Shown here: positions 8,503 through 40,232 of the stretch, piece after piece
Position numbering within the stretch: the first letter of the stretch is position 1
How the letters are laid out: each line of letters starts with the position of its first letter
NCBI RefSeq assembly: GCF_000526995.1
Contig: NZ_AZUI01000001.1
Span: 5,622,001 to 5,686,000 of the forward strand
Length of the DNA stretch: 64,000 nt
Reading direction: 5' to 3'
Origin: Lacrimispora indolis DSM 755
Lineage (GTDB): Bacteria; Bacillota; Clostridia; Lachnospirales; Lachnospiraceae
Translations under genes and position numbers: made by a program
The notes under the pieces: model-generated
Seen by the model: only the letters and a program-made list of their open reading frames with translations
Database searches by the model: none
Told to the model about the DNA's origin: nothing

Positions 8503-10092
8503 TTACGGCGCTTTTCCGCTGTTTCTGGTGTAATCCGAAGGAGCGACACCAGTGTTCTGTTTGAATACCCTGTAAAAGGAACGGTAATCGTCGTAGCCGA
8601 TTGCAGCGGCCACTTCCGCCACCGGCATGTCCGGCCTCCGCTCCATAAGGCCCTTGGCATAGTCCATTTTAATCCGGATCACATAATCCCTGAAATTAAC
8701 TCCAGTCTTTATTTTAAAGTAGCTGGTAAAATACACATCACTTAAGTTTACGTGCCTTGCCACGTCTTTGGCCAGAATCTTTTCTCCCATATGGGATTTG
8801 ATATAATACTCCGCTGCCTGAATGATCTGGTTCTTAGAACCGTTTCCTCCTGATCCCTGCTTTCCGGCACAGTCTACGAGAAAATCCTCCATATAGGCTT
8901 TTAATTCTTCGAAGGTCCGTATGGTATTAATGGGAAGAACGGCCTCTGCCTGAGAAAACTCCTTTCCGTTTCCCAGTGCCTTCTGAATGTCCGTTATTAA
9001 GTAAATACACATCCCACGGATATAATTGGGCGACGGCATGGGCACATAAAGAAGCTGAGAAAAATATTCCCGGCAGAATTCCCGTATTTTCCCAGTCTGA
9101 TTCGTTGTGATAGAATATATCAGATTATTATAATCCATCTGATTAGCGGCTGCAGGAGGCGGAGTGGTACACAGGATGGTTTCATCGAAGATCTTTTGTT
9201 CTATCTCATAAAAGCTGTAGGACAGGCACATGAGAGCGGTCTTATAGGAATTGGAGCAATCCGTAAGCGCAGCTCCTTCCTTACCGATTCCCACGGTTAA
9301 ATCCATGGTGGAATCCCGGTTTACCCGTTTTAAACACCGGGCCGCGAGGAAGCGGTAATTCACGGGCACAGCCTTTGGCTGCAGGGTATGGATAATCGTC
9401 AAAAGCTCGCTGGAGCTTGACACAAGAAATTCATATCTGGTTTCCTGAAGCTCTTCGCTCACAATATCCATCAGATAATTGATCTGCTGGAATTCATCCT
9501 CCTGTTCCCTGTCCTCTTTTCCCTCAATGGAAAAAACCATGACCCGGAAGGGGCTGTCATTTAATTTAAGCTCCAGCCGGTGGATTTCATCCCGGATCTC
9601 TTCATAAGAATAAAACTCGTTCTTTAACAGCCTTTTTAAAAATTTCTCCTTTGGCTCTGATTTAACATTTAAATAGGCGGAATAAGAATGAATATGGTTG
9701 GATTGGAGAATCTCTTCTTTTTGCTGCCTGATTTCCGTCACCAGCTCATCGATCTTAATGGGCTTTAGAAAATAATTCTTAGCACCAAGCTGAATGGCCT
9801 TCTGTGCATATTTAAAATCCCCATAACCGCTTAATATAATGAAATTAGTCTGCAGCTTTTCATGTTTTACCCGTTCCATGAGCTGCAGTCCATCCATGCC
9901 GGGCATGCGGATATCAGTAATAACAATGTCCGGATTGCAGGACTTTATGATATCATATGCCTCCCTGCCATCCTCTGCAGTGCCCACTATGGTAATGCCG
10001 AACTGCTCCCAGGGAACGACCGTAGAAAGCCCGTTGCGGATGGCCGCTTCATCGTCTGCAATCAACAGAGTTATATTTTTATTTGCATCCAT
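8503..10092 (-). CDS. YesN-type response regulator, AraC family
   Basis: Cytoplasmic response regulator of about 529 residues. An N-terminal receiver domain carries the phospho-acceptor Asp in DIVITDIRMPGMDG, with the DDE acidic pocket near the start and Lys in FLKPIK. A middle linker is followed by a C-terminal AraC-type double helix-turn-helix (about 420-525, with DVYFTSYFKIKTGVNFRDYV and IGYDDYRSFYRVFKQNTGVAP). I place the start at 10092 because GGAGGAAGGCAGG lies just upstream. That ATG overlaps the reverse transcriptase stop as TAATG, so translation is probably coupled to the retron gene. It partners with the kinase downstream and probably activates the sugar operon. Confidence 0.94.
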   Translation of the reverse strand: MDANKNITLLIADDEAAIRNGLSTVVPWEQFGITIVGTAEDGREAYDIIKSCNPDIVITDIRMPGMDGLQLMERVKHEKLQTNFIILSGYGDFKYAQKAIQLGAKNYFLKPIKIDELVTEIRQQKEEILQSNHIHSYSAYLNVKSEPKEKFLKRLLKNEFYSYEEIRDEIHRLELKLNDSPFRVMVFSIEGKEDREQEDEFQQINYLMDIVSEELQETRYEFLVSSSSELLTIIHTLQPKAVPVNYRFLAARCLKRVNRDSTMDLTVGIGKEGAALTDCSNSYKTALMCLSYSFYEIEQKIFDETILCTTPPPAAANQMDYNNLIYSITTNQTGKIREFCREYFSQLLYVPMPSPNYIRGMCIYLITDIQKALGNGKEFSQAEAVLPINTIRTFEELKAYMEDFLVDCAGKQGSGGNGSKNQIIQAAEYYIKSHMGEKILAKDVARHVNLSDVYFTSYFKIKTGVNFRDYVIRIKMDYAKGLMERRPDMPVAEVAAAIGYDDYRSFYRVFKQNTGVAPSDYTRNSGKAP

Positions 10093-11078
10093 TATCCTGC
10101 CTTCCTCCCAAGTACAGCCAAAACCTTCTCCTCCGCTTCCTGAAACCAATGATCCTCAGGATTCACCAGGAGGATATATCGTATTTTTCCCAAAAGAGAA
10201 AGAACATATTGATCCTCACTGATCCGTGCATCATTTCCCAACTTCTCTATATGGGATTTTACCCCGTATTTCAGACAGTAAAAAATCTCCTGCCGCAGCT
10301 TCCTTCTGTAATCCCGGGAAACCTGAAGCTTTTCATTGACCACGATCCCCGTAACTGCCTGCCTCCCGTTACGGTACAAAATCCTGGTCTTGGTTTCATT
10401 CAGTTCAAACCCCATGGCATTTAAAAAGCCGGAAACCTTCCTGATAACCAGGCCCGGATTAAAATCACCGGAAAACGTCATATCATCGCAGTATCTGGTA
10501 TAGGAAATTCCCTTGCCTTCGCACCATTTGTTTATGGATTCATCAAAATGCTTCATAACCAGATTGGAAACCGCAGGCGAAGTTGGCGCTCCCTGAGGCA
10601 GAAAATCGTTGCAGCAGCATAAGGCAGTCAGCATGGTCCCTACTGACGTAGGGAAATATTGGACGGGAAACGCACTGCTTAATACCATTGGAAATGAAAT
10701 ACTTCCGAAAAAATCTTTTATATCCAGCTTTACCACCACGTTCTTTCCCCTATGAACTGCGGCATTGGACACCACTCCTGCACCCTTGTGATAGGCTGTG
10801 GCACAGCCGGAAACAGAATATCCGTCCAGAATGTGGTGCAGGATATTCCTCTGTATTTTCATGAGCATGTAATCCGGAACCAGAAGCTTCCTGGATTTTC
10901 CGTTCTTTTTTGGTATCAATACAATACCATAATGGCGTTCCGCGTGGTTGCTGAACGCATAAAGACATGCCATTACCTTCTGGTCCGGCCATCTGGTATT
11001 CCCCAGAAGCCGGAAAGATAGCAGCATGTCTCTGCAGTAATCCGGTGTGCAGTATTTCCACAAATCTGTCTGATACAT
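10092..11078 (-). CDS. Retron-type reverse transcriptase
   Basis: RNA-directed DNA polymerase of about 328 residues. Motifs in order from the start used here: NAAVH (105-109, the NAxxH signature of retron enzymes), LDIKDFF (118-124) with the first catalytic Asp, QGAPTSP (162-168), YCDD (196-199, a variant of the usual YADD), and AVTG (241-244, the retron VTG motif). There is no maturase, Cas1 or N-terminal fusion. It should copy the msd RNA encoded directly upstream into msDNA. I prefer ATG 11078 because GGAGG lies 5 bases upstream; ATG 11090 gives four more residues but has no site. Its stop overlaps the start of the yesN-like gene. No effector gene is adjacent. Confidence 0.93.
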   Translation of the reverse strand: MYQTDLWKYCTPDYCRDMLLSFRLLGNTRWPDQKVMACLYAFSNHAERHYGIVLIPKKNGKSRKLLVPDYMLMKIQRNILHHILDGYSVSGCATAYHKGAGVVSNAAVHRGKNVVVKLDIKDFFGSISFPMVLSSAFPVQYFPTSVGTMLTALCCCNDFLPQGAPTSPAVSNLVMKHFDESINKWCEGKGISYTRYCDDMTFSGDFNPGLVIRKVSGFLNAMGFELNETKTRILYRNGRQAVTGIVVNEKLQVSRDYRRKLRQEIFYCLKYGVKSHIEKLGNDARISEDQYVLSLLGKIRYILLVNPEDHWFQEAEEKVLAVLGRKAG

Positions 11079-11129
11079 CGGCTCCTCCATACCAGTAATA
11101 TTTTAAAATTCTTCCTTTATTTACGAAAA

Positions 11130-11413
11130 AACAACAGAAGCAATACAAATTTGATGCCGTAAGATGCGAAGACGTACAAGCCGCAGGCGGAAGCACATGC
11201 AATGTGCGGAAGTACTTCGCAGCAGATTACGGCCTTTTTCCATACCATGAAAATCCCGGCAGCGACTCGCTGCCCGGCCGGAGATTTATTCTGCCGGCAG
11301 CTGAGAAAAACACGCTATGCAGGTTTTTCTCAGCTGCCGCGGCATGGGCCAAACGTATATACATCATATTCCTTTGGCCCATTTCTCGCGGAAATACTAT
11401 TGCTTCTGCTGTT
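11130..11413 (-). ncRNA. Retron msr-msd RNA gene
   Basis: A structured segment lies just upstream of the reverse transcriptase. It is bounded by inverted repeats a1 (11398-11413, AACAGCAGAAGCAATA on the minus strand) and a2 (11130-11145, TATTGCTTCTGTTGTT), which pair over 16 bases with one G-U. Between them are a 10-bp perfect hairpin (11344-11382), a perfect hairpin of at least 16 bp (11296-11338), a small 7-bp hairpin (11258-11274) and a long imperfect hairpin (11156-11233) whose base is GCCGTAA/TTACGGC. The last is the best msd candidate. The G at 11397, directly after a1, is the likely branch guanosine. The a1-msr-msd-a2-RT order matches known retrons. Exact ends are inferred. Confidence 0.85.
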
Positions 11414-11443
11414 ATACTAATTATTCTATCACAATGACTTCAA
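11414..11443 (-). promoter_or_regulatory. Promoter of the retron RNA/RT operon
   Basis: On the minus strand, -35 TTGAAG (11443-11438), an 18-base spacer and -10 TAGTAT (11419-11414). The predicted start point falls within the first half of the a1 repeat, which is where a retron transcript should begin. Confidence 0.7.
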
Positions 11444-16044: not shown

Positions 16045-16328
16045 ATGAAATAATAATAAACCGTTGAAAAAGAAGAGTAAGCTTTCCTGCAATATTTCAG
16101 AGAGCCGCCGTTGGTGTGAGTGCGGTATAAAGCTGATAGCTGAATGGACTTTTGAGGGCGGCCCTGAATCCTTGTACCAGTAGGGGCTGACGGAGACCAC
16201 AACCGTTATTTCTCGTGGCATATATGCTAGTATATGAAAAGTGGGCTTTTATAAAGTCAATTTGAGTGGCACCGCGGATTGTATGATTCGTCTCAAGTAC
16301 GTTTTTTAACGTACTTGGGACTTTTTTT
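16045..16328 (+). promoter_or_regulatory. T-box riboswitch leader, predicted tryptophan-specific
   Basis: Leader RNA that senses uncharged tRNA. The AG-rich GAAGAG stem I region begins near 16065. The specifier loop reads GAATGGACT, giving the codon TGG (Trp, 16145-16147) followed by a purine. The T-box core TGAGTGGCACCGCGG is at 16263-16277. The terminator GTCTCAAGTACG...CGTACTTGGGAC (16290-16321) is followed by seven T residues. When tRNA-Trp is uncharged, the antiterminator should form and the transporter genes be expressed. Specifier choice is by position and fits the family's known link to trp transporters. Confidence 0.9.
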
Positions 16329-39889: not shown

Positions 39890-39892
39890 GAG

Positions 39893-40232
39893 TGGAGCAG
39901 ACGGGAGTTGAACCCGTGTCCAAAAACCAATTCCCTGTTCTTCTACTATCATAGTTAGTTTATTGACATTCCCTCCACCGCCCGGGAACTAACACCCTGA
40001 CAGCTTCAGTAGCTTCATATTACGACCGTATGCTCAAAGCTTTGCAAACGTCGTTTCTCACATCGTCGATGCCGGGATCTTAAAGTGTGAGTGCCTTAAG
40101 GCCGACAAGCTGCATTAAGCAGCTAATGCTAATTCGTTATTGTTAGCGTTTATATTTAGGTTTGCCATTTAACGCATCGCATGCGGATAGCTTCACCAGC
40201 TGCATAGCCCCTGTCGAAACCAGTACTGCCCC
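39893..40232 (-). ncRNA. ssrA: Transfer-messenger RNA (tmRNA)
   Basis: Ribosome-rescue RNA of about 340 nt. The 5' end GGGGCAGTACTGGTTTCGAC pairs with the 3' CTGCTCC as the acceptor stem, and the T-arm reads GGACACGGGTTCAACTCCCG before an encoded CCA. The tag frame (40165-40115) encodes ANLNINANNNELALAA and a TAA stop, with the hydrophobic end recognised by ClpXP-type proteases. Pseudoknot-forming GC stretches follow the tag. It is transcribed from its own promoter. Confidence 0.97.

Follow-up and report, generated by a model that had tools for sequence, protein, structure and literature searches.

Retrons have mostly been studied as three-part phage-defence systems, and the Ec107-like retrons are not known to have an adjacent effector gene. 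In the accessible part of PMC6868368, Ec107 (Eco5) is described with a YCDD active site, and the works cited there (Lampson and Rice 1997; Lampson et al. 2002) report chromosomal copies in Nannocystis exedens that resemble multicopy single-stranded DNA (msDNA), with retrotransposition as a possible origin. As far as the available parts of the open-licence literature go, these citations were the only mention of chromosomal msDNA copies that turned up. Here we describe a newly found member of the Ec107-like retrons in a 64,000-nucleotide stretch of Lacrimispora indolis DSM 755 (contig NZ_AZUI01000001.1, positions 5,622,001 to 5,686,000), referred to as the window, where a first-pass annotation made from the sequence alone had proposed a retron. 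The element is very probably an intact chromosomal Ec107-like retron without an adjacent effector, and its interest lies both in this family, which has no visible effector, and in the insertions of the msd part alone that were identified in the genomes of close relatives.

The open reading frame (ORF) of the reverse transcriptase (RT) occupies positions 10092–11090 on the minus strand and encodes 332 amino acids, in which the retron marks NAxxH (here NAAVH), PTSP and VTG can be read as annotated, together with YCDD at the active site. An alternative start at 11078 would give 328 amino acids and is more likely than the one at 11090, because GGAGG lies five bases upstream of it and 21 of the 32 proteins in an alignment of homologues (A1) begin there. 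The best of 74 PADLOC models was RT_Ec107-like (471.5 bits, E 2.9e-142), followed by RT_III-A (328.1 bits). The first-pass annotation had named a grouping with the enzymes of group II introns or diversity-generating retroelements (DGRs) as an outcome that would speak against a retron, and neither was found. The group II intron model reached 64.9 bits against a cut-off of 300, and the protein did not qualify as a maturase. The AlphaFold model (mean predicted local distance difference test score 85.5, predicted template modelling score 0.66) had the retron RTs Ec86, Ec67 and Ec78 as its nearest folds, and a DGR RT ranked 26th (E 4.6e-9, against 2.8e-18 for Ec86), a comparison of folds alone in which template and variable repeats were not sought. 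In a quick maximum-likelihood tree of 97 RTs (98 were intended, and L002 was dropped as it had no hit), with support from the Shimodaira–Hasegawa-like approximate likelihood ratio test (SH-aLRT) and no bootstrap, the window RT fell within a 45-row group with SH-aLRT 95 that holds the RTs of the E. coli pyrE-slmA locus, the placement that the annotation had left to be made. One homologue, P0043, combines RT and acetyltransferase Pfam domains in a single protein of 494 amino acids.

Ahead of the RT, on the same strand, the 16-base repeats a1 (11398–11413) and a2 (11130–11145) pair with a single G-U, and the long msd hairpin spans 11156–11233; all of these were found on checking the sequence. The region 11120–11420 folds at −131.9 kcal/mol, as compared to a mean of −88.4 (standard deviation 4.8) for 100 dinucleotide shuffles, none of which was as low (z −9). 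When 16 homologous RNAs were aligned, 93.2% of the cells paired in the proposed structure and 28–45% in slid structures, a control that favours the structure since it was written from the same 16 sequences. Two-sided changes were found at 23 of 55 pairs, against a mean of 13.1 in shuffles, with 0 of 500 shuffles as high; another of the five covariation measures, further pair types, was not unusual (90 of 500 as high). These changes affect 9 of the 16 pairs of a1 with a2, and the msd hairpin makes up helices 4 and 5 of the analysis; the covariation of a1/a2 and of the msd stem, whose absence would have counted against a retron, is seen. A further msr hairpin with a GCGAGTCGC loop (11255–11277, minus strand) has 9 pairs, with 97.9% of cells paired and two-sided changes at 4. 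The G directly 3′ of a1, within ATAG, does not vary across the 16 aligned RNAs; a G at this place has a known role in the branching of other retrons, and position 11397 is the predicted branch G.

A covariance model built from the same alignment (R1), with no E. coli sequence in its training, matched the window at 11128–11413 with 188 bits, the window being in the training set. R1 matches were found ahead of the RT, on the same strand and at E ≤ 0.01, in 69 of the 80 named loci, or 63 of 74 without the six training loci; one of them (L080) is partial and another (L033) sits some 1.6 kb ahead of its RT. The gene that separates this Ec107-like RNA from the RT in L033 looks, by eye, like one for a glycosyl hydrolase 25 lysozyme. 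Within the genus, R1 matched 12 of 25 genomes, the same 12 that carry the RT. The retron at the E. coli pyrE-slmA locus was matched at 98.1 bits (E 4e-25), so the RNA, which the first-pass annotation could not assign to a characterised retron, has a homologue there, taken to be Ec107. We presume this identity from the 1992 report, the YCDD motif and the intergenic site. A Pseudocitrobacter locus has the same gene lengths and strands as the E. coli site. An Rfam scan of the retron stretch gave nothing at the gathering score and four sub-threshold, chance-like matches (best E 0.53). Taken together, the RT family, its motifs and nearest folds, the covariation of a1/a2 and msd, and the position of the RNA ahead of the RT bear out the annotation of the element as a retron.

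Secondary R1 hits appeared in five genus genomes, and all of them were msd. Whole-genome DNA searches of the 25 genus genomes with two msd queries, covering the msd part only, identified 17 places outside retrons at E ≤ 1e-6, distributed in 8 of the 12 retron-bearing genomes and in 0 of the 13 others (Fisher p 4.6e-4, with no correction for kinship). When the limit was relaxed to E 0.01, the counts were 8 of 12 and 2 of 13 (p 0.015). Two of the 17 places represent one site common to the genomes G320 and G321. The copies (L200, L201, L204–L206, L208–L213, L226–L228, L233–L235, L237 and L239–L241) showed 89–100% identity to the retron of their own genome over the matched pieces, reaching 95/95 nt in G321, 82/82 in G304, and 57/57 and 42/42 in G299. 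The 82-nt copy of G304 is nearer to its own msd than to that of any sister, and the sisters of G321 share an identical msd. In total, the own msd was the best or joint best match for 14 of 21 copies.

Numbered along the RNA of their own retron, one copy starts at position 53 and extends 21 nt into msr, three distinct insertions start at 74 (the orthologue of one of these at 77), and the rest start no earlier than 84. Their last positions do not go beyond 182 in RNAs with a2 starting at 184, or beyond 171 in those with a2 starting at 176–178; no copy enters a2, even though a2 was included in an msd query. A 107-nt Ec107 DNA ending at a2 would have its start some 5 nt away from the place that corresponds to position 74, and Eco5 DNA is reported, in the accessible part of PMC8989520, to change in length without RNase H. 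Using the shared start of the three relatives' insertions (alignment A3) as the left end and the border of a2 as the right end, the template of the reverse-transcribed DNA in the window is predicted at 11146–11243 (minus strand), about 98 nt, or about 103 if mapped from the 107 nt of Ec107.

Filled and near-clean empty sites could be compared for two copies. The 41-nt copy of G299 has an empty site in the collinear G320 and G321, which have 42 fewer bases in 900, with no target duplication seen and a few junction bases changed; the 35-nt copy of G303 is absent from G317, G318 and G304, which have 32–40 fewer bases. For the G321 copy, the sister site was not found. These two copies of G299 and G303 and the G317/G318 copy, 3 of 17 sites, lie next to strong hairpins of terminator type (−33 to −39 kcal/mol), and 13 of 19 copies overlap no ORF of at least 80 codons. 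The G304 copy lies within a broken gene, and in G318 the homology covers a single flank of it and stops at the copy edge. We also considered CRISPR (clustered regularly interspaced short palindromic repeats) spacers as the source and rejected them, as no repeats were seen by eye in the 120 bases flanking each side of 19 copies (from 17 sites, with two orthologues).

We propose, with a probability of roughly two in three, that Lacrimispora msDNA naturally joins ectopic, mostly non-coding sites, some of them terminator T-tracts, and that it did so several times with its intact 3′ end (RNA position 74), leaving behind scars made of msd alone, a record of past reverse transcription together with its end points and mutational cost. 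A clearly less likely explanation, which we would still take seriously, is that the fragments are independent palindromic repeats, similar to repetitive extragenic palindromes or miniature inverted-repeat transposable elements, or DNA-level duplications of the retron, and thus uninformative on msDNA. The copies do form hairpins and mostly avoid ORFs, as such repeats would. In addition, the two RT-less genomes with weak matches (E 2.5e-4 and 1e-3) fit this explanation, the match in G305 being chance-like and inside a gene by eye. On the other hand, the long copies equal the msd of their own genome, a2 is never entered, three distinct insertions share one start, two empty sites lack an evident target duplication and every secondary model hit is msd, all of which argues against this explanation.

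The proposal of msDNA scars has to be set against a number of observations that weigh against it. For 7 of the 21 copies, all of them short and in G303, G317 and G318, the msd of a sister is nearer than their own, as the repeat explanation would also have it, and this weakens the link to the own retron; an older insertion with later change could be the cause. The genome-wide DNA searches covered msd alone, which leaves room for DNA-level duplication. As a control, the 3,972-base retron region of G299 was searched against 1,195,851 bases of the same genome, giving two msd hits (E 2e-22 and 0.027) and two non-msd hits (E 5e-5, downstream of the RT, and 0.002, in the RT), a control of low power on stretches partly chosen by known copies. 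The window genome itself has no msd copy at E ≤ 0.01, and G300, G307 and G315 have no dispersed copies either. In E. coli, the retron msd was found in 373 of 5,426 genomes, in at most one place each and never in a second. The reading of the element as an intact retron has contrary points of its own, in that eleven of the 80 named loci had no R1 match at E ≤ 0.1 and both reverse transcription and msDNA production in the window strain are inferred. Near the retron itself, msd copies in the 38 checked of the 69 RNA-positive named loci came to 15-nt matches only, in two loci.

The history of the element in the genus could be followed through its neighbours. All 12 retron-bearing Lacrimispora genomes have the retron on one and the same side of the DAHP synthase gene, and three of them have extra DNA in between (about 7 kb in two and 1.4 kb in one). 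G306 retains a deletion relic (L150) with the promoter, the start of a1 and the RT end, and G316 has a frameshift. From this conserved arrangement, the element appears to be vertically kept beside DAHP synthase and lost or broken in some lineages. The ratio of nonsynonymous to synonymous substitution rates was 0.14–0.17 for the window RT against five close relatives and 0.06–0.21 across 12 RT genes, one from another genus (pairs with finite synonymous rates, RT genes alone compared), values that place the RT under purifying selection in the genus. A near relative, L. celerecrescens (L026), has an RT of 83% identity. RT matches at E ≤ 1e-30 were found in 23 of 299 sampled genomes of the family, the own genome included, and not all of these are Ec107-like; relatives in plasmid and phage collections all had less than 60% identity. 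In the G304 locus (L148), the DAHP synthase gene beside the retron is split in two frames, by a frameshift or an assembly error.

Upstream of a1, the element TGTGNTARAAT is kept in 11 of 11 aligned genus relatives, in L003 from another genus and in the deletion relic. Its window form, TGTGATAGAAT at 11433–11423 on the minus strand, is the likelier promoter, as an extended −10 whose function is suggested by conservation. The first-pass annotation had proposed TTGAAG-18-TAGTAT; this sequence is present, but TAGTAT is not conserved whereas the extended −10 is, so TAGTAT is probably not the −10 in use. The transcript, placed by the annotation to start inside a1, would instead start just before it. 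The msr of the window is about 90 nt longer than in nine genus relatives (alignment A2), and this extra segment, with approximate ends at 11290–11382 (minus strand), holds about two of the hairpins enclosed by a1 and a2. The second of them has an 87% match over 45 nt at an apparently intergenic place elsewhere in the same genome (L169). Unrelated long RNAs are found elsewhere in the retron family, such as the 340 nt of L043. In the relic of G306, the promoter sits upstream of the response regulator gene, as if taken over.

The window retron is flanked by genes for a response regulator and DAHP synthase, with no PADLOC match to either. We collected 102 nearest-neighbour proteins from 52 clade loci and scanned 98 of them (four from near-duplicate loci were dropped; Pfam E ≤ 1e-6, PADLOC E ≤ 1e-10), with no recurrent partner gene found: the most frequent Pfam family, dihydrodipicolinate synthase, matched 5 of 98 and no PADLOC model matched more than 2 of 98. 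Matches to AbiEii, AbiQ and SspH represented one neighbour protein each. Within 4 kb, the largest clusters were ABC-type ATPases (10 of 80 loci, at differing positions) and DapA (7 of 80, in related genomes). A fused or adjacent effector was rejected, as none recurred among the neighbour proteins. The term effector-less here refers to adjacent genes, and a trans-acting effector may exist, which counts against a retron that works alone.

The response regulator gene (8503–10092, minus strand) is probably no part of the retron, although its position invites another explanation, namely that the retron and the genes downstream of it, for the response regulator, a histidine kinase and sugar transport, work as a single operon in which the retron controls, or is controlled by, the two-component system. 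The RT stop overlaps the ATG of the regulator (TAATG), as also in L147, and the likely ribosome site of the regulator lies inside the RT 3′ end; moreover, a response regulator follows the RT in G303, G304, G317 and G318, and in the G306 relic the regulator gene still has the retron promoter ahead of it. We nevertheless regard this operon as improbable, since no response regulator homologue was found after the retron in the fetched stretch of the seven other retron-bearing genus genomes (G299, G300, G307, G315, G316, G320 and G321), and AraC-type neighbours were rare (HTH_18 in 2 of 98, GGDEF_2 in 3 of 98, L026 of the genus included). It is more doubtful still that the element is a type III-A retron that lost its effector, a phosphoribosyltransferase with a winged-helix protein, or became separated from it. 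RT_III-A was indeed the second-best PADLOC model at 328 bits, but the Ec107-like model scored 143 bits higher, and the III-A RT of L174, which lies near a phosphoribosyltransferase gene on a Vagococcus plasmid, fell outside the 45-row group; the RNA of L174 was not matched by R1. Elsewhere in the window, we noticed a T-box leader (16055–16298, plus strand) ahead of a gene cluster encoding a solute-binding protein and ABC-transporter-like proteins, and a transfer-messenger RNA (39890–40232, minus strand).

On the reading of the locus as an intact Ec107-like retron, transcription from the extended −10 would give a single RNA with a1, msr, msd and a2 followed by the RT gene. The repeats a1 and a2 pair, as covariation shows, and the conserved GAGUCG hairpin, whose own pairing also covaries, is a likely landmark for the RT. 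The RT would then prime on the invariant G after a1, as in the rest of the family, and make a branched DNA from about 98 nt of msd, a length suggested by the insertions in sister species. In those species, the msd product has probably been inserted elsewhere, with msDNA rarely captured at breaks or at stalled forks.

The Ec107-like branch has no visible effector, yet it spans Clostridia to Enterobacteriaceae and its copies in this genus are under purifying selection. If the msd-only insertions are scars of msDNA, genomes could be read for the retrons that made DNA, the length of that DNA and its destination, and natural msDNA capture would become testable, with a bearing on retron-based genome editors.

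Compared with described systems, the window retron is closest to Ec107. The RTs of the E. coli pyrE-slmA locus and of the window share the 45-row clade and YCDD, their RNAs are homologous (98 bits), and both elements stand alone in intergenic sites beside housekeeping genes. They differ in the site, which is pyrE-slmA in E. coli and DAHP synthase in the window, in the extra msr segment of about 90 nt, and in the DNA, predicted at about 98 nt against 107 nt. Type III-A is the nearest other RT family by score; however, no phosphoribosyltransferase or winged-helix gene lies beside the window RT, the III-A RT stands outside the clade and the RNA of the one III-A locus, L174, is unmatched. As for the insertions, Nannocystis exedens, as far as the accessible account goes, likewise has chromosomal sequences resembling msDNA. 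Set beside those repeats, the Lacrimispora copies come from a single genus of Bacillota, 8 of whose genomes carry them, have had filled sites compared with empty ones, and consist of msd without msr in all but one.

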